Source: Thermogemmata fonticola (GTDB taxonomy: Bacteria > Planctomycetota > Planctomycetia > Gemmatales > Gemmataceae). Taken from it: a stretch of 64,000 nt of DNA. The stretch covers positions 1-64,000 of the forward strand of contig NZ_JACEFB010000017.1 in NCBI RefSeq assembly GCF_013694095.1, read 5' to 3'. The stretch's first letter is position 1; each line of letters starts with the position of its first letter. The translations under genes and the position numbers were made by a program. The notes beneath the pieces were generated by a model. It was not told where the DNA came from, did no database searches, and saw nothing but the letters and a program-made list of their open reading frames with translations. Below are positions 10,530-58,179 of the stretch, one piece after another.

Positions 10530-10852
10530 ATCGGCTCGATCATCCGCTGCGGAAATGACGCCAAGCCAGCGGAGGGGTGAAACCCAGAAAGCCAACGGCT
10601 TGGGGAATGACAGGATGCTGCCACTTCCTCGAGCCGTCCGCCAGCGAGGAGGTGACTGTCGGCCGCCTGCGGACAATTTTCCCCTTCCTCCCCGCCGCTG
10701 CTGCTTCCCGGCCGGGTCGTACCTCCGTCGGAATCGCCAGAACGGCTGTTGGGGAACGCCCCGCGTCGGGTTGGGGGGGCCATGCTACTCGGCTCCTCAG
10801 CTTATCACCGAGAAAGCTTTCATCGATCACCGGCTTATCATCGAGAAAGTGA
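10530..10852. repeat. Intergenic region with a 33-base direct repeat
   Basis: GCTTATCAYCGAGAAAG occurs at 10800-10816 and 10833-10849, a 33-base period, immediately beyond the stop of the leftward LRR gene. The rest of the interval shows no gene. Confidence 0.6.
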
Positions 10853-11770
10853 TCAGTGTATGATCCTACAGCCCGGCAAGGCTTTTCGCAGTTCCCGAAC
10901 CCCTGCATCCGTGACACGGGTGTCGTACAGGTTCAGCCGTTGCAGGTTTTGAAGTTGGGTCAGGTGTTTGAGTCCGGCATCGGTGATTTGGGTGCGGCTC
11001 AAGTTCAGCTCTTGCAGGTTTTGGAGTTGTTTCAGGTGGGGGAGTGCAGCGTCGGTGATCTCGGTGTAGCTCAGGTTCAGCCATTGCATTTTTTTAAGCT
11101 TGGCCAGGTGTTGGAGTCCAGCGTTGGTGATCTTGGTCCGGCTGAGGTCCAGCGTGTGGAGGTTTTGGAGTTGGACCAGGTGTTGGAGTGCGGCGTCGGT
11201 GATCAGGCTAGGCTTCTCAAACAGAAGGTTGCTCAGGTACAGCACTTGCAAGTTTTGGAGTGGGGCCAGTTCTTTGACTCCGGCATCGGTGATCGGGGTG
11301 CCGCTCAGGTCCAGCGCTTGCAGGTTTTTGAGTTGGGCTAAATGTGGGAGTCCCGCGTCGGTGATCTGGGTGAAGCTCAGGTCCAGCAGGTGCAGGTGAC
11401 TCAGTTTGGCTACCTCCTTCAAACCCGCGTCCGTAATTCGGGTGAAACTCAGCCCAAAGGGTGCGCCGGGAGCGGGGAGCTTGCCTACTACGCCGTCCCC
11501 TGGCCACAGCCTAAACCGAAAACCAGGAAGGTCCCCCGCCTTGGCTACACTTTCCCCCACAAAAAACACGATGACTCCATAATCCATGACGCGGAGCCAG
11601 CCCACCTCGGCACCCGCCGCACGCCAGCGCTGGACTACCTCCTCCGGCAACCGACGGAGTTTGGCCTTACCCCCTGGCTCGTCGGGTTGCCCCCAATTTG
11701 ATCCCACGTTCAGCAGGAAAGCCCCGACCAGACCGAACCACGCCCCCGCCAGAGGAAGTCGCCGCTGCAT
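10853..11770 (-). CDS. Leucine-rich-repeat protein (TDAGL type), probably exported
   Basis: The 305-residue product starts with a hydrophobic stretch (LAGAWFGLVGAFLLNVG) that can act as a signal peptide. After a non-repeat region (about 25-105) it has eight LRR units of about 24 residues with the consensus TxITDAGLxHLxxLxNLxxL, ending close to the C-terminus. LRRs of this type mediate protein-protein contact, and no catalytic domain is attached. GGGGGAGGTC lies 6 bases before the ATG. The regular repeats make the DNA itself internally repetitive. Confidence 0.85.
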   Translation of the reverse strand: MQRRLPLAGAWFGLVGAFLLNVGSNWGQPDEPGGKAKLRRLPEEVVQRWRAAGAEVGWLRVMDYGVIVFFVGESVAKAGDLPGFRFRLWPGDGVVGKLPAPGAPFGLSFTRITDAGLKEVAKLSHLHLLDLSFTQITDAGLPHLAQLKNLQALDLSGTPITDAGVKELAPLQNLQVLYLSNLLFEKPSLITDAALQHLVQLQNLHTLDLSRTKITNAGLQHLAKLKKMQWLNLSYTEITDAALPHLKQLQNLQELNLSRTQITDAGLKHLTQLQNLQRLNLYDTRVTDAGVRELRKALPGCRIIH

Positions 11771-11979
11771 GACTGACCTCCCCCAAGACTTGAGTGTGCG
11801 ATGGAATTGACCCCTTCAGTGTAACCCTCCGCTATTCCTCTCACAAGCGAAAACGCGAAAGGGGCATGGTGGGAATCCACGCCACACGGTGCGGTGAAGC
11901 GTCGGGGGCAGAGGGGGAGGAAAGTGGCCGAGGGCGTTGGGCGGAGGAAAGGCGGCCAGGGGGTTGGCAGAGGGGGGGG

Positions 11980-13245
11980 TTACTTCCGGGCGCGGAGGTC
12001 GTAGCAGGCGAGTTTGTCCTGGTCGCGGAGGTAGAGTCGGCCGTTGGCGATGACGGGATGTGCCCAGCATTCGCGACCGCTGCGGTTGGTTTCCTGGAAG
12101 GCGCCGGCCAGGGTGAGGCCGTCCGGGGTCGCCTGGAGCAGGGCCACTACGCCGTTCTGGTAGCGGAAGTAGAGCATGCCGTCCGCGGCGATGACCGCGG
12201 CCGAGCCGCCGCCGCCCGCGGGATTGCGGCTTTCCTTCCACACGATCTCGCCGTTGCGGAAGTCCACGCAGGCGGGCAGGCCGTTGTTGTGTCCGTGGCC
12301 AAGGTAGAGATAATCTCCGACCAGGACCATCCCGCCGTGGTGGTTCTGCAACTCCCGGCCGGAATGGCGCTTGACTTCCTCGACTTGGACTTGCATCGGT
12401 CCCGTGACGCGCAGGCGCAGCAGGGCGGCACCGCTGTCGTAGCCGGTGGAGCAGAACAGGTAGGGGCTGCGGGCCACGACGGTCGGAATGTTGGCCGTGC
12501 TGTTGCTGACGCGCTTGTATTGCCAGAGGAGCTTGCCGCTTTGGGCTTCCACCCCCACGACGCCGCCGCTGGGTCCCAAATGGGTGACGTACAGGCTCAC
12601 GCCGTCCACCGTGACTTTGATCGGGGAGGCATAACCGGCCCCGCCGCAGCGGGGGATGGCACACTTCCAGATGACCGCTCCAGTGTCCTTGTTCAAGGCG
12701 ACCACGGCGGCCTCGTCACTTCCCGGCGTGCAGATGAGCTTGTTCCCATCCACCAGCGGCGATTCGCTGTAGCCCCAGCCGGACATCATCCGCCCCCCGA
12801 AGTCCTTGCCGTAGTTCTTCCGCCAGAGGACGCGGCCCGTGCGGGCATCGACACAGGCCAGGTCGCCGTCGCGGGTGAGGGCATAGACTTTGCCCTGGTG
12901 AACGACGGGGGTGCTATTCGGTTCGCCGCGCTGTTCGGAGTAGGGGGTGGACCAGAGCAGCTCGCCGGTCTTTTCCTGCCGTGCCCAGAGGTGATTGCGT
13001 CCCTCGAGCATTCCCGTGCCGTAGATCACCCCGCCGCTGACCGCGACCGAGGAGAAGCCGTTGCCGCAACCTTTGACGGTCCAGAGGAGCGGCGGTCCTC
13101 CCTTGGGCCAGCTTTTGAGCAAGCCGGTTTCGCGGGAGACGCCGTCGCGCTCGGGACCGCGCCACTGCGGCCAATCCGCCGCCCCCAGCAAGCCGGAGAT
13201 CAGCAGCACAACGCCCCCGCTGCCAAGCCAACTTGTACGGTTCAT
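11980..13245 (-). CDS. Secreted PQQ-like beta-propeller protein
   Basis: The 421-residue product has a signal peptide (MNRTSWLGSGGVVLLISGLLGAA) followed by the WPQWRGPERDGVS motif typical of planctomycete outer-membrane-biogenesis-like propellers. Repeated blades follow, such as GDLACVDARTGRVLWRKNYG, DTGAVIWKCA and AQSGKLLWQYKR. Blades of the form D-x-x-TG-x-x-LW are diagnostic. No PQQ-dependent dehydrogenase active-site pattern is evident, so an enzymatic role is not implied. It lies 108 bases downstream of a close paralogue on the same strand. Confidence 0.85.
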   Translation of the reverse strand: MNRTSWLGSGGVVLLISGLLGAADWPQWRGPERDGVSRETGLLKSWPKGGPPLLWTVKGCGNGFSSVAVSGGVIYGTGMLEGRNHLWARQEKTGELLWSTPYSEQRGEPNSTPVVHQGKVYALTRDGDLACVDARTGRVLWRKNYGKDFGGRMMSGWGYSESPLVDGNKLICTPGSDEAAVVALNKDTGAVIWKCAIPRCGGAGYASPIKVTVDGVSLYVTHLGPSGGVVGVEAQSGKLLWQYKRVSNSTANIPTVVARSPYLFCSTGYDSGAALLRLRVTGPMQVQVEEVKRHSGRELQNHHGGMVLVGDYLYLGHGHNNGLPACVDFRNGEIVWKESRNPAGGGGSAAVIAADGMLYFRYQNGVVALLQATPDGLTLAGAFQETNRSGRECWAHPVIANGRLYLRDQDKLACYDLRARK

Positions 13246-13353
13246 GGTGCAGCCCTCGTTCTCGAAGAAGATTCGATCCTGGTGAACCGTTCAACCCGCA
13301 GGCTGGGACCGTCCCCCCCGGCGCTTCCGGCGGCGCGGCGATCTTCTTCCGCC

Positions 13354-14685
13354 TCACGGCTTGACGTTATAGCAATATAGCATGTTCTGATCGCGGATAT
13401 AGAGTCGGCCGTTGGCAATCACAGGGTGCGGCCAACTCTGGGAATAGCGCTTGTTATCCGGCGGGGGCAGGCGGAAGGTCGAGACCACTTTCAGCTCCTG
13501 CGGCGAGGGTTCGATCAAGACCATCACGCCGTTCTGGTAGCGGAAGTAGAGTCGGCCATCGGCGTAGAGGACCGCCGCCGAGCCTTGACCGCCTCCGACC
13601 GCCTTGGCGTTGCGCTCCGGCCCCCACTTGATCTCCCCCGTGGCAAACTCCACGCACACCGGATGCCCCTGGTTCTGCCCGTGGCCGAAGTAGAGGTAGC
13701 CATCGACCAGGACCATGCCGCCGTGGTGATTGTTCAGCTCGGAGACTTTGTAGCTTTTGAGTTCTTTGACCTCGAAGGAGCCGTCGCCTTTGGGTAACAG
13801 TTGGAGCAAGGCCGCTCCGCCGCTATAGCTGCACGAGACCCAGACTTTATCCCCGGAGATGACGGGCATGGGAATCTGGGCCACGCCGCCGCTCGCCGCT
13901 TGACCCCGGTATTGCCACAGCAGCTTGCCCGTCTCCGCGTGAACGCCGATCAGTCCGCCGCTGCTGCCTGTGAGCACCACGTACATCGGCACGTTGGCGA
14001 TCACCGCCTTGACCGGGGAGGAATACCCCTGTCCGCCGCCGACGTTCCCCGCCGCACAGCGCCAGATTTCCTTCCCCGTGTCCGCGTCCCAAGCCACCAT
14101 CGTGGCCTTTGCTCCTCCCGGCGTGCCGATGACCTTTTGGCCGTCCACCAGCACCGATTCGGTGTACGCCCAGGTGGGCACCCGCCCGCCGTAGTCCCGG
14201 ACATAGTTTTTCGTCCACAGCAGCTTGCCGTCGCTCGTCTGGACGCAAGCCAGGGTGCCATCGCCGCTGACGACATAAGCTTTCCCTGCGGCCACGGTCG
14301 GCGTGCTCGCCGGTCCGTTCGTCTGGTTCTTGTAAGCCTGACCCGTCGCGGGCGGATCGGCAAACGGCGTGAACCAGAGTTCCTTGCCGTCGGCTTCATT
14401 CAAGGCCCAGATGCCGTCTTTGCCGTCGCGCAGACCGATGCCGAAAATTTTTCCTTCCGCGATCGACGGCGTGCCCCAACCCGCCCCGCGGTTGCCCACC
14501 TTCCACAAAAGCGGCGGACCCGAGGCCGGCCAGCTCCGCAATAGGCCCGTCTCGGTGCAGTAGCCGTCCCGCTTCGGACCGCGGAACTCCGGCCAATCCG
14601 CCGCACCGACCAGACCCGCTCCCAGCATCAGACCCCCAACTACCCCCACCCACCCCCGGATGGGCAACACCTCGCGTGCTTTCAT
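13354..14685 (-). CDS. Secreted PQQ-like beta-propeller protein, paralogue of the downstream gene
   Basis: The 443-residue product has a signal peptide ending VGAADWPEFRGPKRDGY. Its blades align one-for-one with those of the 11980-13245 gene: shared ADWP-FRGP, GDGTLACVQTSDGKLLWTKNY, ETGKLLWQYRG, LNNHHGGMVLVDGYLYFGHG and a matching C-terminus GRLYIRDQNMLYCYN. The pair therefore arose by tandem duplication. The start at 14685 is preferred because GGAGAAG lies 7 bases upstream. An ATG at 14706 would add seven basic residues. A symmetrical site lies about 55 bases upstream. Confidence 0.87.
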   Translation of the reverse strand: MKAREVLPIRGWVGVVGGLMLGAGLVGAADWPEFRGPKRDGYCTETGLLRSWPASGPPLLWKVGNRGAGWGTPSIAEGKIFGIGLRDGKDGIWALNEADGKELWFTPFADPPATGQAYKNQTNGPASTPTVAAGKAYVVSGDGTLACVQTSDGKLLWTKNYVRDYGGRVPTWAYTESVLVDGQKVIGTPGGAKATMVAWDADTGKEIWRCAAGNVGGGQGYSSPVKAVIANVPMYVVLTGSSGGLIGVHAETGKLLWQYRGQAASGGVAQIPMPVISGDKVWVSCSYSGGAALLQLLPKGDGSFEVKELKSYKVSELNNHHGGMVLVDGYLYFGHGQNQGHPVCVEFATGEIKWGPERNAKAVGGGQGSAAVLYADGRLYFRYQNGVMVLIEPSPQELKVVSTFRLPPPDNKRYSQSWPHPVIANGRLYIRDQNMLYCYNVKP

Positions 14686-48668: not shown

Positions 48669-50117
48669 ATGCCTACGCGCAGTCCTTACGAAGATGAGGA
48701 TGCTGCCCCCCCATTGTCGAGCCGCCCCTCCGCCCCGGCGAGTCCAGCAGGAGGGGGGTCGGCGCGTCCGCCGTCGGCTTCGGCGGGAGCGACGCCCTCC
48801 TCGTCTCCCCAGCCCGTTCCCTCACCGTCTCCCACACCCACACCCCTGCGCTTCGGTGTCTGCGGAGTCCTGGAAAAAATCGACGAATTGGAAACTGAAT
48901 TGGGACAGATCGGGATCATCCGCTACGTGACTTCCGGCGTGACCTACACTGCCCCGCCGGCCTCGGTGCAACCTTGCGCTTGGCTCAAGCATCCGCGCGA
49001 TCCCCAACGCTACGAGTGCCTCTGGGATGTCCGCAACTCCAACAACCTGCTCCAACTTCGCCAAGCGATCGAGCAGGCCGTCCAATCCGGGGAAATCCGG
49101 CAGGCCGACTCTCCCGTAGGCGATCGGCTGGACCGGGTCGTCTATCTGCTCGCCCAGCACATTGCCAGCCTGCACCGCGAAGGGTGGTCCGCAGGTTTGA
49201 TCTGCCCGGAGAACGTCTTTTACAAAGACGATGGCTCGGAGGTCTTTCTGGCCGACTTGGGCTTTTACTGGAAACCGGCGCGCGGGGAGCCGCCCTGGGA
49301 TGCGGAACCGGGCCGGCCCGAATGGATCGAGGCCAACTGGACTTACGCCTGGCTCTATTCCCGTCCGCCGCTTCAGCAGCAGTTCGCCTGTAGGAGCTTC
49401 GCCCCCCCAGTCTGGGAAAAACAACCCTTCACCCCGCCGACGCCTGCGGAAGACGTGCAGACCTTCGCCCGGCTCCTCTGGTGGTTGGTCGTCGGCAATG
49501 ACCGCGGCCCCCAAAGCCTTACCCCTTTCCTAAACCTGCTGCATGCCGCCATCGAGGGACAGGTGGCCGACATGGCCGATTTCCTCGCCCAGCTCGAACG
49601 ATGTCCCCCCAGCTCCCATTTCAACCGGGCGCGAGCGGTATCCTCCCGCGGACCGTCCCCGCTGGGGCGGCGGACCGTTCTCCTTCTCGGAGCTGCGGTC
49701 CTTGTCATCGGCGCCGCCGGATTGGCTTATTACCTTTTGAGTCGAACGCCGCCGGAGGGGGAGGACAGGAAGATAATTATCCCTTCGCCGGAGGAGTTTG
49801 CCCAAAAGCCTTACGAGGAACAAATGAAGTACTGGCGGGACACATACAATCCTCAATCCCCCCTCACGGATGAACAGAAGGCCACCCTGGCAAAACTACG
49901 CTGCAACACTCTCCAGAAAGTTGAAGAGAAGCACGACGAGCTTGTGGATAAAGCCTTCGATCATGCCGAGCGCTTCAACGTCGCTCGTGAGTTTAAGAAG
50001 CTGCTGGACGATGTCAAGTTGTTACGATCCAAGCCAGTGCATGACCCTGAAGTAGAAAAGAAGGAGCAGTTATGGCAGGAGATTATCGAACTGCGTTTGC
50101 TCGAGTTGGAAGCTTAG
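48669..50117 (+). CDS. Membrane-anchored pseudokinase, first gene of the GTPase/Hsp70-like operon
   Basis: The 482-residue product starts with a Ser/Pro-rich tail (1-60). A kinase-like domain follows (about 62-320): the catalytic-loop region reads LHREGWSAGLICPENVFY (about residue 168) and the metal site reads LADLGFYW (about 194). Compared with HRDxKxxN...DFG, the catalytic Asp and Lys are missing and DFG is DLG, and no glycine-rich loop is seen. A membrane helix (TVLLLGAAVLVIGAAGLAYYLL, about 335-357) precedes a charged, probably coiled-coil outer region. It is likely a scaffold or sensor. Its 3' end overlaps the next gene by 46 bases. Confidence 0.78.
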   Translation: MPTRSPYEDEDAAPPLSSRPSAPASPAGGGSARPPSASAGATPSSSPQPVPSPSPTPTPLRFGVCGVLEKIDELETELGQIGIIRYVTSGVTYTAPPASVQPCAWLKHPRDPQRYECLWDVRNSNNLLQLRQAIEQAVQSGEIRQADSPVGDRLDRVVYLLAQHIASLHREGWSAGLICPENVFYKDDGSEVFLADLGFYWKPARGEPPWDAEPGRPEWIEANWTYAWLYSRPPLQQQFACRSFAPPVWEKQPFTPPTPAEDVQTFARLLWWLVVGNDRGPQSLTPFLNLLHAAIEGQVADMADFLAQLERCPPSSHFNRARAVSSRGPSPLGRRTVLLLGAAVLVIGAAGLAYYLLSRTPPEGEDRKIIIPSPEEFAQKPYEEQMKYWRDTYNPQSPLTDEQKATLAKLRCNTLQKVEEKHDELVDKAFDHAERFNVAREFKKLLDDVKLLRSKPVHDPEVEKKEQLWQEIIELRLLELEA

Positions 50118-51391
50118 CCACGCTAGCCGTCTGCGTTCTGTTTTGTAGCCAAGCCCCGCGCCTGCTGTCCCAGGACATCCCCCAAGGACAGGGCAAGCGG
50201 ACGTTGTACCTCCTGCTGCGTATACCTTCCAATAAGCTTGATGATCCTAAACAGCAAGAAGATTTGATTTTGCAAACGATCAAAAGAGGGATCCAAAGAG
50301 CCAAGCTGAAAGTCCGAGAAGAGCCGATCATTCGCACTGTATCTCCCGCCTTTGTCGAGGAGATCCAAAGGCTTATCCCCGGCAGTGGTTGGCGAGTAGA
50401 GGCGGCGGACGACGCCCAAGCCGAAAAGAATGGAGCAAACGGTAATATTCAGGAAAAACTGAACATTAGTCTTCTTGATGCCAATAATAACATATACAAA
50501 ATCCAATTGCCATCGGACAAATATGTTCTCAAAGAACTCGATGTAGAATTTGCCAATGGCAAACTCCAAACCTTCAAATTGTCTTCTCCGAAAGACAAAC
50601 AACCGGTAGCACTGCGACCTAATTATCCTGGTTCTTACGTCCTACGTCTGCAAGGTAACGATGTGCCCCAAAAATGCACCGCAACAATCTTGAGTAGCAA
50701 AGGGGAACAGAAATTGAGTGCCGATTGGCCAGTCCAAAGCAGGGCTTACTTACTTATTCTCAAGGATTTTGAGGGGAATCTCGATGAGCTGTTCGCCGTG
50801 GTCCAAGACCCCGATTTGGTCGGTAACCCCATCCAGTTACTATCCCTCGATCAGCACCTATTTGCAGTTGCTTCCGTGGGCCTAGAAACGGAACCGACTT
50901 CTTTCATTCACGGAAATACGCTCACCGTGGTGGTACCCGATTTGAAAACACGCAGAGTCAAACATGTTTGGGTATATTTGCCCATTTCCGAGGAAAAGGT
51001 AGATGAGGAAATCGCACGCTGGCTGAAACATAGCAGCGTAAAGAATGTGTCGAAAGACCTGCCTCTGCTCATCGAGAAAAACCTGGTACGATTCGATCCC
51101 AATCAGAGGGCGATACTCGACAAGGATGTGATAAACCAGCCAAAGTGGTGGGAGACCGGACGCAACGGAAAAGATCATTTCACCCGAACCTTTGAGTTGA
51201 AAGACATTCCTGAACTGGTCAATCGCATCCCTAGCATGTGGATGCTCACAGTGTGGATCTTTGAAGATAGCGATGGGAATAAAGAATTGATCTTTATCAA
51301 GAATCGACAGGGAAAAACTGCTCCTTTGGAATCGCAGGAAATCATCACTTGGCGACAGTCCCTACCGAAACTCAAGACGAAACCTAAATAG
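50072..51391 (+). CDS. Exported protein of unknown fold, low GC relative to neighbours
   Basis: The 439-residue product has a hydrophobic leader (VGSLATLAVCVLFCSQAP) consistent with a signal peptide or anchor. Only beta-type motifs are seen (TLYLLLRIPSNKLDD, YKIQLPSDKYVLKELDVEFA, PGSYVLRLQGN, NTLTVVVPDLKTRRVKHVW). It may form repeated sandwich domains. AAGGAG lies just before the ATG, which sits inside the preceding gene, so coupling is likely. The codon composition is AT-richer than the flanking genes. No family is recognised, and its place in the operon suggests it works outside the cytoplasmic membrane with the pseudokinase. Confidence 0.72.
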   Translation: MAGDYRTAFARVGSLATLAVCVLFCSQAPRLLSQDIPQGQGKRTLYLLLRIPSNKLDDPKQQEDLILQTIKRGIQRAKLKVREEPIIRTVSPAFVEEIQRLIPGSGWRVEAADDAQAEKNGANGNIQEKLNISLLDANNNIYKIQLPSDKYVLKELDVEFANGKLQTFKLSSPKDKQPVALRPNYPGSYVLRLQGNDVPQKCTATILSSKGEQKLSADWPVQSRAYLLILKDFEGNLDELFAVVQDPDLVGNPIQLLSLDQHLFAVASVGLETEPTSFIHGNTLTVVVPDLKTRRVKHVWVYLPISEEKVDEEIARWLKHSSVKNVSKDLPLLIEKNLVRFDPNQRAILDKDVINQPKWWETGRNGKDHFTRTFELKDIPELVNRIPSMWMLTVWIFEDSDGNKELIFIKNRQGKTAPLESQEIITWRQSLPKLKTKPK

Positions 51392-51459: not shown

Positions 51460-53514
51460 ATGGCCATGAGCAGCGCGATACCTGCCCCGCTGACCCCCGC
51501 GGAATGCCCCTTGCTGGTCAAGTACGCCCAGGACCCGAATGCGGCGGCAGAGCTGGTGCAACGGTACAACCAGAGCGTGGAGCGCCTGCAGAATTTGCAA
51601 CGCGGGGAGTACGCCGCCCTTCTGGCGCGTGAGGATTTCGTCCAGGAGGTGGTGGGCCTGTTGGAAGACATCCGGCAGCGCCTGACCCGCACCAAGTACG
51701 TGGTCGGCTGCATCGGTATCACCCAAGCGGGCAAATCGACCGTGGTCAACAGCGTCTTGGGGGACGAAATCTGCAAGCCCGGCGCTATGGATGCCTGCTC
51801 GAGCCTGCCCAGCCGCATCGTCAAAGCCGACCACTTCGCCCTGGACCTGGAGTACCTCACGCCAAAACAGTTTGAACAACGCCTCCATCGCCTGTGCCAG
51901 GAAGCCCTGGGGTTGAGCACCGTCGGCGACCTGGACAAGGACATCGTGCCCTACCTGGACAAGGCGGAGTACTTCCGCAAGGAAGGGGTGGAACGCCCGC
52001 GCTTGCAGGACGATTTGAAGTATCTCAAAGGCTTGATCGAGGCATACAAGCGGCGGGGGAAACAGGTCCTGACCGATCCGCCGCGGCGGGAAAGCAATCT
52101 GCCGTATGAGCAGCGTTATGCCTACACGACGCACGGAGGCGGACGCGGCCAGGATGCGCTGCTTTTGCGCGAGGCCCGCTTCCGCGTTAAGAACTCCTAC
52201 ATCCCGGACGATCTGGAGTTGTGCGACCTGCCGGGTCTGGACAGCAAGCGGACCATCGACGATATCGTCACCTGGGAGTATCTCTCGCAACTGGATGGGG
52301 CCTTTCTTTTCGTCAATGCCGCCAGCAACTTCCTGACGGAAGGGATGCTCAAGGCCCTCTGCCAAGTCATGCAGGTTTTCGACCACAAGCTCACCGACCG
52401 GGCGTGGGTCATTTTCAACAAGATGGACACGCTAACGCCAGACAGTTTCCGGGATGGAGCCAACGAGAACATCTTTCACACGATCGAGCGCTTTTTGGAG
52501 CGGTCTCAGCTTCCCGCGTCCCAGGTTTGTTTCACCGCCAAGCGCATCTGGGAGAATGCTTTGAGGAACAAAGGGCGGGCCAATCTGGAGCAGGCCTGCG
52601 ACTTCGTGGGGCAGACACCGGAGCGGCCCATCCCCGCTTGCTGCCCGGAGAACATGCGGTCGGCCTGGGAGGAATTGCTCAAAGATGGCGGGATCAGCTA
52701 TCTCCGGCGGTTGATCTTCGAGCATGTGGCGCGTTCGGTGGCGGCGGAAGTACGCCAAGATGTGGAACGCAAACTCAAACGGTTCCACGAAAAGCTGGAA
52801 CAGCACCTTCAGGCGGAAGAGCTACGACGCCGCTTGGACCCCGAAGCGCTGCGCAATATCCAGACGTGCTACAGCGAGGTCATCCGCCTCCAACGCGATC
52901 TGCTGCTCCGCTGGCGCAACTACACGGCGGCGCGATCGGTGCTGGATACCTTCCGCGAACAGCAGCTCAAAAACATCATCGACTCTCTGGAACGCGAGAA
53001 TCTGGAATATAGCAGTCAAGACGAGATTGCTCGCCTGGTGGATACCAATGCCCGCCTCATCGAACGTCTGTTGAAACAATGCCTCCATACCGGTCTGGTT
53101 TTTCAGCGGGCTTACGAAGAGATTCGCACCCAATTGGAGAAGCTGCCCACGGTCCGCTGGGGGAACTCCCAGGAGACGTGCGAGAGTTGGTGGCAAAGGA
53201 TCAGCGACGAAGACCGTGCCCACTATGCAGAGTGGTTGGGCAATGGCCAGGACTTGAGGTTTATCACCTCCGAGCTGGAAAGCTGGCTCCAGGGCCGCTT
53301 GGACCTGCCGGGCGGTGCAGGCCTAACCTCCTCCGGCTTCCTGCGCGACCGCCAATCCCTGCGGTTGCTCCAGGAGCGGCTCGACAGCGTCTTCGACTAT
53401 CTCGATCAGAAGATTCGCTCCCGCCTCCGCTATCGCCTGCGGCAGTTGAGCAGCGAATTGTCCCTTCTGGTCGATGAACATAAAAGTGGCAGCGACGGCC
53501 CGCCCGCAAAATGA
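51460..53514 (+). CDS. Dynamin-like GTPase (SrfC-like)
   Basis: The 684-residue product has a GTPase domain with G1 GITQAGKST (about residues 85-93), G3 DLPGLD (about 256) and G4 NKMD (about 320). A long helical region with heptad-like charge patterns follows (about 400-680; RRLIFEHVARSVAAEVRQDV, LQERLDSVFDYLDQKIRSRL), which suits a dynamin-type stalk. There is no transmembrane helix. The domain plan and the Hsp70-like neighbour resemble SrfC of srfABC loci; that relation is inferred. Dynamin-like proteins usually remodel or tether membranes by GTP-driven assembly. The start may be ATG 51460 or 51466. Confidence 0.82.
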   Translation: MAMSSAIPAPLTPAECPLLVKYAQDPNAAAELVQRYNQSVERLQNLQRGEYAALLAREDFVQEVVGLLEDIRQRLTRTKYVVGCIGITQAGKSTVVNSVLGDEICKPGAMDACSSLPSRIVKADHFALDLEYLTPKQFEQRLHRLCQEALGLSTVGDLDKDIVPYLDKAEYFRKEGVERPRLQDDLKYLKGLIEAYKRRGKQVLTDPPRRESNLPYEQRYAYTTHGGGRGQDALLLREARFRVKNSYIPDDLELCDLPGLDSKRTIDDIVTWEYLSQLDGAFLFVNAASNFLTEGMLKALCQVMQVFDHKLTDRAWVIFNKMDTLTPDSFRDGANENIFHTIERFLERSQLPASQVCFTAKRIWENALRNKGRANLEQACDFVGQTPERPIPACCPENMRSAWEELLKDGGISYLRRLIFEHVARSVAAEVRQDVERKLKRFHEKLEQHLQAEELRRRLDPEALRNIQTCYSEVIRLQRDLLLRWRNYTAARSVLDTFREQQLKNIIDSLERENLEYSSQDEIARLVDTNARLIERLLKQCLHTGLVFQRAYEEIRTQLEKLPTVRWGNSQETCESWWQRISDEDRAHYAEWLGNGQDLRFITSELESWLQGRLDLPGGAGLTSSGFLRDRQSLRLLQERLDSVFDYLDQKIRSRLRYRLRQLSSELSLLVDEHKSGSDGPPAK

Positions 53515-53660: not shown

Positions 53661-56357
53661 ATGTCGATCCGCGTGCCTCTGATCATGGAGAACATTTACA
53701 TCCGCACGGGGTTGTGTGCCCATACATTCCAATTGTCTGGCCACATACGCCCCAGTCAACCCTGGGACCAATTGGCTTCTTTTGGCGTGTTGATCTATTG
53801 GCCGCGGGAGTTCGGCTGGCTGCGGCTCTATGCTATGGCGGATGCCGGCAGCGGCGGGACGAATATCCCCTTCCAGGACAGTACGGCCGGTCTCGATAGG
53901 GTCTGCCAAGATCATGCCGCCCGGCGGGAACAGGTGGCGCCGGGGAAATTTCTGAGCAACTACCGCTTCCTCGCCTCGAGTCTGCCGCAAATGAACCGCG
54001 TGTTCCTCACAGTCGAGGTGGATACTGATGACGAGGGTTTCCACAACCAGGTTCAGCAGTTGGGAGCCGCCGACAAACAGGAGTACACCCATCCGATCCG
54101 GTTGTTGATTTTCGATGGCAAGCAGTTCGGGCGGTATATCCAGCAGGAAGGAGAGCTTTCGCTGATCCTCAAGCCCTGCACTCCCCTGCCGCGCTATGAA
54201 GGGGTGTTGACCATCGATTTGGGGAACACGAGCACCACGGCCGTGACGCAGGACTTGCGCGACCAGACCTACCTTTCCACCTCGCTCAAGACGGTGCCGT
54301 TGGAGGAAGGGCGGAGCAGCGGCGGCGAAGCCCAACCGCTGGTGTCGGCCGTGCGGATCGACCGGATCATCAGTTTTGGAGCCAACATTGAAGGGCAGCG
54401 CCGCTTTCCGAGCCTGCCGACAGATGAGAGGGCCGGGGCCATCCGTTTCGTGGCGGGGGAACGGGCGGTCACCAATTTGAGCGCCGGCGATGTGGGGGTG
54501 GTCCTGGGTGCCAAGCAGTTGTTGAGCACGCAGCCGTTGTTTCGTCCGGCGTCGTCCGAGGGGGCCGATTGGACGGCGATGCGGCAGGAGGAGCCGACGT
54601 TTTCCCTGCTGACGGAGCATGAACGCGCGCCAGGGGTGATCCAGCGGGAAACCATCGAGATGCTCCATCGGGTCCCCGGCGAGCTGCTCTTCAGCTACGT
54701 TTATCAGCAATTCCGCCGGGCCCAGAAAGGTTGGCCCGATGACGTGGTCCTGACCTATCCGACGACCTACAGCCCCCGCGAGTTGCTGCAACTCCAGAAA
54801 GCCGCGGCGCTAGGCTGGCTGCGGGCGATGGGGCTGCCCCAGAGCGACCAAAACGCCTCCCTTGACACAGGCGGGGATGGCACGTTGCAAGAGTTGGGCA
54901 GCCGCGTCCGGCAGTGGTTGCAGAACCCCGACACCCCTTGCCCCTTGATCGGCCTAGCGTTGGATGAAGCGACGGCGGCGGCCTTCTACTATCTCTATCG
55001 GCGCGTCTTCGACCTGCATGGCGGGCTGGTCCGTTTCCGCTATCTCTATCCCAACGGCATCCACATGCTGCTGGTGGATGTTGGGGGTGGGACGACGGAT
55101 ATTGCTTTGGTTCGCGCTGTATCTCCGGTCCAGGAACAGCATAATTTGTATGTGGAAATCCTCAACCGTAGCGGTTTGCGCCGCTTCGGCGGCGATGCTA
55201 TGACCCGCGAGATTTGCCGCCTGCTCAAGGCCAAAGTGCAAGGGCTCATCCGGCGTGTGCGGCAAATGCCGAATACTCCGCCGCCTCTGCCCGCGCAGCT
55301 TCCGGCAGGTCAAGCCCGCCAAATCGTGGAAGGCTACATCACTCGCCTGCGGGATGCCGATCCTAAGGATGAACTGGTTCCTACCCGTTTCGACCCCAAC
55401 AGAATGGACGAGGACAACCTCCAGCGGCGGACCTGCTTCCACGGCCTCTGGCGCCTGGCCGAAGAAATCAAGCGCCGGCTCAGCGAATCCGCTAAGGATA
55501 GCCGCGGACGCAGCGTACGCCTGCGGGATTTGGACCCCTCCTTGCTCCGAGCCGATACATCCCCCCTCATGGCAGGCATACTCCGCAACATTCCGCAACA
55601 GGTCCAAAATACCCTGATCAACCAGATTGCTGACACCACGATCTCCCGGAGCGAAGTCGATCCCCTCCTGCGCGACCATTTGGAACGATTGGTCCAGCAA
55701 TGCAATCGCTTGATCATGGACCAAATGGACAAGGACCTGGAAACGGGAGTGGGAATCGACTGGGTGATCCTCTCCGGCAACGGCTCGCTCTATCCCCTGT
55801 GCCGGGAGGTTTTGGAAGAGAGGCTCTGCGTGCCGTATGTCCAGCAGAAACTGTACTGCGAGGAGCAAAATCTGAAGTATGCTGTGGCGAAGGGAGCGAC
55901 CCTGGCCCGGATGGTAGAGCGCGTGCCCCGCACGTTGCAGATTCGCTTCAATAGCCGCTTGTGCGATCTGCTGCCCTTCGACGTCGGTTATCACGACATG
56001 CGGACCGGTCGACACCGCGTGCTGTTTACCGCTATGACCAGTTACCGGCAACTGGAGTCTCAGGCCCAGGAAGTCGATTTGCGTTCCGTCACGAGCGGGG
56101 AGGCAGGTTGGGAGGGGGGGCAACAACTGGGGCGTGTTTTCAACCTGGAACGCCGGTTTCCGGGTGAGGAGGAGCATCGGTGGGAGCCGTACCTGTCGTA
56201 TGAGTTCAAGGACCCCCTCTCCGGGCGGATCGAGATTAGTTATGTTTCCGCGGAGGGGTTTTTCCGGGTGATGGACAGAGAAACGGGGGCCATCGGCCAG
56301 ATGCGCGTCATGACTGCGGAGGATAGCCGTCCCGTGGCGATGGGGGGAGACATTTGA
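53661..56357 (+). CDS. Hsp70/actin-superfamily ATPase (SrfB-like)
   Basis: The 898-residue product shows the five-motif plan of the actin/Hsp70 ATPase fold: phosphate-1 GVLTIDLGNTSTTAVTQD (about residue 182), a connect motif ALDEATAAAFYYLYR (about 431; compare EPTAAALAY in Hsp70), phosphate-2 MLLVDVGGGTTDIALV (about 469) and adenosine motif WVILSGNGSLYPLCREVL (about 700). The N-terminal 180 residues and the region between motifs are larger than in DnaK, as in SrfB proteins. No substrate-binding domain of DnaK type is obvious. The ATG at 53661 is preferred, with GAGGTGGG about 8 bases upstream. Confidence 0.85.
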   Translation: MSIRVPLIMENIYIRTGLCAHTFQLSGHIRPSQPWDQLASFGVLIYWPREFGWLRLYAMADAGSGGTNIPFQDSTAGLDRVCQDHAARREQVAPGKFLSNYRFLASSLPQMNRVFLTVEVDTDDEGFHNQVQQLGAADKQEYTHPIRLLIFDGKQFGRYIQQEGELSLILKPCTPLPRYEGVLTIDLGNTSTTAVTQDLRDQTYLSTSLKTVPLEEGRSSGGEAQPLVSAVRIDRIISFGANIEGQRRFPSLPTDERAGAIRFVAGERAVTNLSAGDVGVVLGAKQLLSTQPLFRPASSEGADWTAMRQEEPTFSLLTEHERAPGVIQRETIEMLHRVPGELLFSYVYQQFRRAQKGWPDDVVLTYPTTYSPRELLQLQKAAALGWLRAMGLPQSDQNASLDTGGDGTLQELGSRVRQWLQNPDTPCPLIGLALDEATAAAFYYLYRRVFDLHGGLVRFRYLYPNGIHMLLVDVGGGTTDIALVRAVSPVQEQHNLYVEILNRSGLRRFGGDAMTREICRLLKAKVQGLIRRVRQMPNTPPPLPAQLPAGQARQIVEGYITRLRDADPKDELVPTRFDPNRMDEDNLQRRTCFHGLWRLAEEIKRRLSESAKDSRGRSVRLRDLDPSLLRADTSPLMAGILRNIPQQVQNTLINQIADTTISRSEVDPLLRDHLERLVQQCNRLIMDQMDKDLETGVGIDWVILSGNGSLYPLCREVLEERLCVPYVQQKLYCEEQNLKYAVAKGATLARMVERVPRTLQIRFNSRLCDLLPFDVGYHDMRTGRHRVLFTAMTSYRQLESQAQEVDLRSVTSGEAGWEGGQQLGRVFNLERRFPGEEEHRWEPYLSYEFKDPLSGRIEISYVSAEGFFRVMDRETGAIGQMRVMTAEDSRPVAMGGDI

Positions 56358-56391: not shown

Positions 56392-58179
56392 ATGCGTGAC
56401 GCAAGTTGTGCCGGTGAACTGGCGGTGCTGCTTCGGGAGATGGCGCGGTTCGCAGTCCGCTTGGCCGATGTGGGTGCCCACTGGCCGGGGGAGTCGGCCG
56501 CCCGACGCTTCCTGCAACTGCTGCCGGAGCGGGAGAACGCGCCGACGGATGTCTGGGGTTGGACCCGCTTGCTGTTGCAATGGCAGCAATGGCGTCCGCC
56601 GCATTTTTTGCGCCGGCTGCTGACGCCGGAACCGGAGGAACTGGAACGGTGGCGGCGGGTCTGCGAGCAATCCAGCGGTGCCCCCGGAGCACGCCGGCGA
56701 GGAACCCTTTCCTGGGGCCGGTGGTTTGGGACTGCTGAGGAAGAGGAAGATACCCGCCTCCTTTTTGCCCGCTTGGCTGAGTGCCTGGCCGCCTGGCGTC
56801 CCGCCAGCCGCGAACGCCGTCGAGCCTTGGAAGAACTCCTGCGCTACGGCCTGGAAGTCGAAAACATCCTCGCCCGCTTGCGGGAACGGGATCAATGGGT
56901 TCCCCTCATCCTGGTGGAGTTGGCGGAGCACGTCGTGGAAACGGCGGAGCGCTGGCGCTGCGGCATGCCGCTGCCGCAGGGACCCTGGCTTACCCTGCTG
57001 GAAGAATCGGGCAGCCCCCCGCCCAGTCATTCCGAGGAAAACAAAAAACTCTGGCGCGGCTGGCTGAGTAATGGAGGAACGCCCTGGTTCGATCAGCTCG
57101 CACAATTGGCGCAGCACGACTCCGCCGCCGCCGCTTGGCTCCAAGCCGTGTGCCAGGGTTTGGCCGTCCAGTGCTATCCCTGCGGCAATGGCTCCAGCTT
57201 CTGGCAGTGGCCCCCTCAGGCGGAGAGTCCCCCCGGTAAAGTCGAGTGCCACGCGGGCGGTTCCGTCGGCCGCATCATCCGCGTTGAACGTTACGCCACC
57301 GATCCCGCTCTTGTCATCTGCACCTGGGAAGCTCCGCAAGAACTGATCGATTATTACGAACAGACAAAGGCCTTGCTGCAACAGGCCCGCGAAGAGGGTC
57401 TGCATGCCCTCGCCGATGCCTGCAAGCGGGAGTTGTCGCGCCTGCTAGCTGAGGGCCAGTTGCCGCTGCGGGAGCATGTGGTTCGCTTGATCGACAGTGT
57501 GGATTCCCCCGAAGCCGCCCCATCGGTCCGGACGGATTGGCCCCCCGTGTGCGTGCGCCAATGGTTGTCTTTCCTCGGATGGAAGGTCTTTCCCCTGTCC
57601 GAGGGCTATCCCCCTGATGCGGAGGAATACCCGCAGCGCTATCAGTTCCGTCCGGTGTTTAAGAAGGATGTGCCGGTGAAAACGGTCCTCGGCGTGCGAG
57701 TGTTCGGCCTGGAGGATGCAAACGGGGAGATCGTCCGCCCCGCGGAGTTGCAAGTGTCCGCCGGTCCGCCGCCGGTGGGCTTGAATGAGCTGGAAGCGGT
57801 CGCTCGGCAAACCCCTGGCGAGATCGGCCAGCGCCTCCAGGAGTCACTGCGCGCCTTCCGCCTGGCGGGCTTGCAGGGTTGCCTGGAACAACAAGTCGTG
57901 GATTTGTTCAAGCTGTATTGGGAACTCCGGGCGCAGTGGATGCAGAGCGATCCGCAAGTGGCCCAGCAGTTCGGGGAACATTTGGCGGGGATGCTTCAGG
58001 AAGGCTTCGGGATCACCACGTTCGAGCCAACTACCGATCGGGATTTTCCGCAAGGGTGGCTAACCTATCCGCCAGGAACTCGCCTGACGAAGGGGCGCGT
58101 AACCCGCATCCTGCGTCCCGGTCTGCGCTATCAGGCGGACGGGAGCCTGCGCCTGCCAGCGTATGTGGAAGCGGAGTAG
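56392..58179 (+). CDS. Helical protein with a GrpE-like C-terminal domain
   Basis: The 595-residue product is mostly helical and Trp/Arg-rich in its first 350 residues (AVLLREMARFAVRLADVG, LRYGLEVENILARLRE, LVELAEHVVETAERW). The last 130 residues resemble GrpE: a helix pair (LRAFRLAGLQGCLEQQVVDL, AQQFGEHLAGMLQEGFGITT), then FEPTTDRDFPQ and TKGRVTRILRPG...DGSLRLPAYVEAE (about 567-595), like the GrpE end G-x-V-x-x-V-x-RPGY...LRPA-x-V-x-V. Its place directly after an Hsp70-like ATPase gene supports a nucleotide-exchange role, but this is an inference from pattern and order. The stop region is duplicated downstream. Confidence 0.65.
   Translation: MRDASCAGELAVLLREMARFAVRLADVGAHWPGESAARRFLQLLPERENAPTDVWGWTRLLLQWQQWRPPHFLRRLLTPEPEELERWRRVCEQSSGAPGARRRGTLSWGRWFGTAEEEEDTRLLFARLAECLAAWRPASRERRRALEELLRYGLEVENILARLRERDQWVPLILVELAEHVVETAERWRCGMPLPQGPWLTLLEESGSPPPSHSEENKKLWRGWLSNGGTPWFDQLAQLAQHDSAAAAWLQAVCQGLAVQCYPCGNGSSFWQWPPQAESPPGKVECHAGGSVGRIIRVERYATDPALVICTWEAPQELIDYYEQTKALLQQAREEGLHALADACKRELSRLLAEGQLPLREHVVRLIDSVDSPEAAPSVRTDWPPVCVRQWLSFLGWKVFPLSEGYPPDAEEYPQRYQFRPVFKKDVPVKTVLGVRVFGLEDANGEIVRPAELQVSAGPPPVGLNELEAVARQTPGEIGQRLQESLRAFRLAGLQGCLEQQVVDLFKLYWELRAQWMQSDPQVAQQFGEHLAGMLQEGFGITTFEPTTDRDFPQGWLTYPPGTRLTKGRVTRILRPGLRYQADGSLRLPAYVEAE

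Follow-up and report, generated by a model that had tools for sequence, protein, structure and literature searches.

GrpE, the exchange factor of DnaK, resets Hsp70 chaperones: a single-unit protein that acts as a homodimer, it binds the nucleotide-binding domain (NBD) of Hsp70 and speeds the release of ADP. The contacts with the NBD are made through the beta domain and helices of GrpE (PMC10825016). Genes of Hsp70 and GrpE were also recorded together with GTPase genes in a 2020 eLife survey of conflict systems, in which GTPase systems with HSP70 and GrpE accounted for about 14% of the GAP1-N2 neighbourhoods, chiefly in actinobacteria and firmicutes (PMC7159879). For the srfABC operon, SrfA, SrfB and SrfC are described as forming a complex, in an account that mentions neither GrpE nor Hsp70 (PMC6950479).

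Here, we analysed a five-gene cluster within a planctomycete window (the whole stretch of DNA under study, 64,000 nucleotides), in which the gene of a protein termed P0001 stands next to that of a divergent Hsp70-like ATPase, P0002. Like GrpE (PF01025; 3a6m, 1dkg, 4ani, 9bls), P0001 has helices and, after them, a beta domain that shows the pattern GxVxxVxxxGYxxxxRPAxVxV, and its gene adjoins an Hsp70 gene. Unlike GrpE, it combines several diverged units in one chain (two clear ones, up to eight in relatives), has no recognisable long N-terminal dimerisation helix (in a poor full-length model) and lies, as a single sequence, under Pfam detection. The cluster shares with GAP1-N2-type GTPase conflict systems the co-encoding of a GTPase, an Hsp70 and a GrpE; however, the GrpE of those systems is described as an ordinary exchange factor, whereas P0001 is a diverged tandem, and the GTPase encoded here is dynamin-like, the cluster having no DO-GTPase or GAP1 match in a Pfam library that may lack such models. 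It resembles srfABC in being a multi-gene cluster and in P0002, whose nearest Pfam family is SrfB (PF07520); in contrast to srfABC, its third component is GrpE-like. In this comparison, the GTPase passes the Dynamin_N cut-off alone and P0001 matches nothing, in libraries that may lack models of SrfA and SrfC. With our unit HMM, no GrpE-like unit was found near classic SrfB-like loci of other classes. A description of tandem GrpE was not found in the literature searched, and since this was open-access literature, the absence is weak evidence of novelty.

Results and discussion

P0001 (595 aa, 56392..58179, plus strand) is encoded by an ORF that starts 34 nt after the end of the Hsp70-like ORF 53661-56357, in agreement with the original prediction, which had placed it directly behind the ATPase gene. 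As a single sequence, it gave zero Pfam or NCBIfam matches even at E ≤ 10 (a PADLOC search was likewise without a match), so that its relation to GrpE is visible solely at the level of profiles and structure. We compared the alignment of the window family (eight sequences) by hhalign with a profile of canonical GrpE that we had derived from planctomycete genomes. The strongest match was obtained for a unit that we call unit II (residues 388-461, 57553..57774, plus strand), whose profile segment 380-470 reached P = 1.8e-8 at a probability of 95%. Unit III (residues 465-595, 57784..58176, plus strand; profile segment 460-595) was weak by sequence, with P = 2.8e-3 and a probability of 11%. The GrpE pattern claimed for the C-terminus is thus indeed present there, but the stronger unit just upstream had been missed. 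Reversed profiles as controls gave P values of about 0.08-0.7 against GrpE, and the other four operon proteins stayed at probabilities of at most 1.6%.

Both units align to an identical portion of GrpE that comprises the end of its last helix and the beta domain, where the motif G-x-V-x-x-V-x-x-x-G-(Y/L)...R-P-A-x-V-x-V is located. Conservation of this motif is strong in unit II, in which the end of a helix is followed by the beta domain (VLGVRVFGL...GEIVRPAELQVSAGP), while unit III has four helices and then a beta domain with TKGRVTRILRPGL...LRLPAYVEAE. Relatives alone suggest a degenerate unit I in P0001 (residues 285-316, SVGRIIRVERYATDPALVICTWEAP; 57244..57339, plus strand): the segment itself is not significant (iE 0.58), and the relative in genome G033 reaches iE 1.7e-8 with an in-family HMM and 2e-5 with an out-of-family HMM. 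The remaining N-terminal region (residues 1-269, 56392..57198, plus strand) appears mostly helical in a low-confidence model, and hhalign detected no relation of residues 1-270 to GrpE (probability 0.8%). The original prediction had described a GrpE part fused to a helical protein; this was wrong in detail, as a further GrpE-like unit lies in the supposed helical protein, of which the N-terminal helical region remains.

Searches beyond the window family pointed in the same direction. Scanning genome contigs with the P0001 sequence alone yielded no relatives, and alignment A3 recovered two. An HMM of residues 382-595 (profile A2), applied to 392 genomes of the phylum, retrieved ordinary GrpE genes at E values of 7e-4 to 2e-7, which were confirmed with the GrpE HMM (E 1e-28 to 1e-62), and also long ORFs with several matches each. 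Among the C-terminal segments of the eight window-family members, GrpE was the sole Pfam family with more than one match, hit weakly by three of the eight (best 0.13); among 25 units, it was the most-matched family (9/25, best 1.1e-6). When a profile of these 25 units (A8) was searched against 177,635 PDB sequences, the first three matches were the GrpE proteins of Thermus (8.6e-8), E. coli (5.7e-5) and Geobacillus (1.4e-4), followed by human GrpEL1 at E 0.12, so that the comparison returned GrpE and not another fold. Searched alone, profile A2 retrieved no GrpE from the PDB, and the PDB profile evidence therefore comes from the wider family. Units from outside the window family matched GrpE in hhalign with a probability of 98% and E 1.3e-13. 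The single chain of P0001 hence comprises two or more units that are homologous to the segment of GrpE made up of helix and beta domain.

Structure prediction was informative for unit III. The full-length AlphaFold model, built from three sequences, was too poor for use (pLDDT 47.6). For residues 465-595, the AF2 model based on six unit rows had a pLDDT of 83.2 and a pTM of 0.77 and shows, as one chain, four helices and the small beta domain that a GrpE relative was expected to have. In a Foldseek search against the PDB, ranks 1-3 were all GrpE chains, at weak E values of 0.23-0.49. VIA-align placed the model on 1dkg_A with a middling Z of 6.1 (rmsd 3.2, 88 aa), on 4ani_A with Z 5.5 (90 aa) and on GrpEL1 with Z 5.4 (88 aa), these rows spanning the helix plus the beta domain. 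Many helix-bundle rows had equal or higher Z, mostly over model residues 1-75; the unrelated helical chains in this list (Z 4-8) were regarded as helix-bundle matches and not taken as relatives. As the underlying alignment mixed rows of units II and III, the model leans on the proposed homology, and we regard the apparent agreement of the predicted fold with GrpE as supportive, not as proof.

Planctomycetes of other classes encode relatives with three to eight tandem units. With iterated HMMs, we counted eight in G288 (spacing about 145 residues, iE 6e-14 to 2e-20), six in an ORF of G260 (eight if a second reading frame is included), five in G172, four in G127 and three each in G230 and G323. 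An HMM trained solely outside the window family recognised unit II of P0001 at iE 9.6e-12 and unit III in the relatives of G008 (3.7e-5), G112 (2.4e-4) and G114 (8e-4); unit III of P0001 itself was not recovered with it. Reversed sequences gave zero matches, and among 400 shuffles the unit HMM produced two domain matches past iE 0.01 and the GrpE HMM none. When the last units were compared, that of the window family matched that of the multi-unit proteins at P = 5.5e-5, and the latter matched canonical GrpE (P = 9e-9). With up to eight copies in its relatives, P0001 resembles a dedicated multi-copy reset factor. The units of G260 are spread across two overlapping frames (L082:9863-11548 and 10536-13367), and the G288 relative has all eight in one; the split is likely a frameshift or a sequencing error. 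We also considered Hsp70-GrpE fusions in long open frames of G060 and G288 and rejected them, because the two genes do not share a frame and long frames occur often at such a GC content.

The partner P0002 (898 aa, 53661..56357, plus strand; NBD at about residues 180-775) aligns in hhalign with DnaK over residues 180-781 (probability 97.5%, E 7e-12). This alignment ends at the linker/SBD start (residue 781); residues 735-898 alone reached a probability of 0.1%, and an SBD was not detected in hhalign against DnaK. Pfam did not assign PF00012 (Hsp70), and a search of the own genome with the HSP70 model gave none at this locus; the SrfB match stayed below the cut-off (E 3e-4, 19.3 bits against 27.1). 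The motifs of an Hsp70 ATPase can be read throughout, namely phosphate 1 (DLGN), connect 1 (DEA), phosphate 2 (D-x-GGGTTD), adenosine (GN) and connect 2 (KGA), and D186-G188-N189, E436, D473-GGGTTD480, G706-N707 and K744-G745 are invariant across five relatives. Lys70 is the catalytic lysine of DnaK; K285 of P0002 aligns with it and is invariant in the same five relatives. Judged from its sequence, P0002 looks catalytically competent, and we infer that it may truly cycle nucleotide, as the original prediction had proposed. Standard DnaK and GrpE are encoded elsewhere in the genome.

The pairing of the GrpE-like gene with the Hsp70-like ATPase gene is conserved. An Hsp70-like gene lies 5' of the GrpE-like gene in 14 of the 15 loci with enough flank (L005, L006, L007, L082, L083, L085, L087, L088, L090, L091, L107, L109, L165 and L167), often with the pair behind a dynamin-like GTPase. 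The GrpE-like gene of L091 is based on a tblastn match and that of L165 on the A2 profile (E 1e-7). L084 and L086 (contig ends) as well as L108 (no Hsp70 found, flank not further examined) were excluded from the count. The exception is L089, which has sufficient flank and lacks an Hsp70 gene in the stretch read; at L089:8059-12459 we noted a five-unit GrpE-like protein, and upstream of it a large kinase-like ORF. The full order of kinase-like protein, 439-aa protein, dynamin-like GTPase, Hsp70-like and GrpE-like gene is common to G033, G008, G010 and L091. In the window's family, 9 of 95 genomes yielded a relative of P0001 (one at E 6.5e-4 only) and 10 of 95 the P0002-type Hsp70 (E below 1e-40). 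All eight genomes with a clear GrpE-like match are among these ten, a co-occurrence with a hypergeometric P of 4e-10 if genomes are taken as independent, shared ancestry being ignored. As for the other two Hsp70-bearing genomes, the contig of G115 ends after the Hsp70 gene and G022 has a diverged GrpE-like gene. Conserved order and co-occurrence thus support the dedicated partnership suggested by the original prediction.

Upstream of the pair, a 684-aa dynamin-like GTPase is encoded at 51460..53514 on the plus strand (Pfam Dynamin_N E 1.7e-7, above the cut-off; PADLOC LeoA E 8.7e-8). It is preceded by the gene of a 439-aa protein of no known family (50072..51391, plus strand), which has a hydrophobic N-terminus (segment 7-25), gave no match in a Pfam search and is conserved by tblastn in L005-L007 and L091. 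The first gene (48669..50117, plus strand) encodes a kinase-like protein, predicted to cross the membrane once (336-354), which hhalign aligned over the catalytic-loop region with the protein kinase of L085 (probability 62%, P 7e-5). At the same position, L085 has a full protein kinase (PF00069 E 2.4e-21). The protein of the window carries GLICPENVF as catalytic loop and DLG at the DFG position and is thus probably a pseudokinase.

But, why should a bacterium that already has DnaK and GrpE encode a second, multi-unit GrpE relative? We consider it probable that P0001, a tandem derived from GrpE, serves the divergent, SrfB-like Hsp70 P0002 as its dedicated, putative nucleotide exchange factor. 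Each or some of its units would dock on the NBD of P0002, as GrpE does on DnaK, and the docked unit would open the Hsp70 cleft and release ADP. A single chain could in this way reset one or several Hsp70 copies, and the tandem arrangement may stand in for the homodimerisation of GrpE. With less confidence, we suggest that the Hsp70 might target the dynamin-like GTPase of the cluster or the assembly of this GTPase at the membrane, possibly under the membrane-anchored kinase-like protein.

Exchange catalysis could also have been lost, the GrpE-descended units now serving solely as a scaffold or docking array for several Hsp70 or GTPase molecules. The strong divergence of the units, their varying number (about two to eight) and the fact that many are single weak matches to the GrpE HMM would fit such a role. 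In E. coli GrpE, Arg183 is an important residue. Gly122 is another one (PMC10825016), and by eye the equivalents of both are not clearly kept in P0001; this apparently poor conservation of some interface positions keeps the scaffold explanation alive. We nevertheless think it unlikely, as the beta-domain motif of unit II is strongly conserved and the partner Hsp70 retains its catalytic motifs. The resemblance to GrpE might, moreover, be due to convergence, in that an unrelated protein shows a common combination of helix and beta-hairpin, and the missing family-library match of P0001 itself and the modest structural scores could be cited for this; yet GrpE tops both the PDB profile search and the fold search and is the most-matched Pfam family, the units from outside the family match it strongly, unrelated controls fail and the gene adjoins an Hsp70 gene, which leaves convergence very improbable. 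Least probable of all is that P0001, since GrpE normally serves DnaK, works as an additional exchange factor of the housekeeping DnaK, given that a canonical GrpE is already present and that the GrpE-like gene is, in the window's family, confined to genomes with the P0002-type Hsp70 and lies directly behind its gene.

Taking P0001 as a dedicated exchange factor, a broader reading, which to us is plausible rather than probable, would be that a separate branch of Hsp70 machines in Planctomycetota uses tandem GrpE proteins with up to eight units per chain as dedicated multi-site exchange factors, linked at the membrane to a dynamin-like GTPase, and thereby forms a chaperone-driven machine for membrane or polymer remodelling that is distinct from DnaK/DnaJ/GrpE. 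If true, a tandem of up to eight diverged units in one chain, together with a dynamin-like GTPase and an Hsp70 other than DnaK, would represent a new architecture of Hsp70 exchange factors. The SrfB-like branch of Hsp70 would gain a plausible nucleotide cycle, testable with two purified proteins, and the question would arise whether the units of a tandem work on their own, cooperate or form a scaffold.

Some related loci differ in composition. The window's genus is represented by one further genome in the sample; this genome lacks the GrpE-like gene and has, at L168 (G001:C196:8000-26000), a dynamin-like GTPase, a SrfB-like Hsp70 of 1300 aa and a third gene of 414 aa. The genes after classic SrfB-like ORFs (L103:11413-12966, L105:11605-12996, L168:10995-12239) end in a hairpin that resembles the GrpE motif, e.g. 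PGTVLREIRPAVIVKVNKVTRLLKGRVIS. A GrpE origin of the third gene in classic SrfB-like clusters is unproven, its profile reaching a probability of 19% against the units and 0.8% against GrpE. In G127, a vWA-domain protein (L085:10642-13062; VWA_2 E 1.7e-10) is encoded 3' of the multi-unit GrpE gene.
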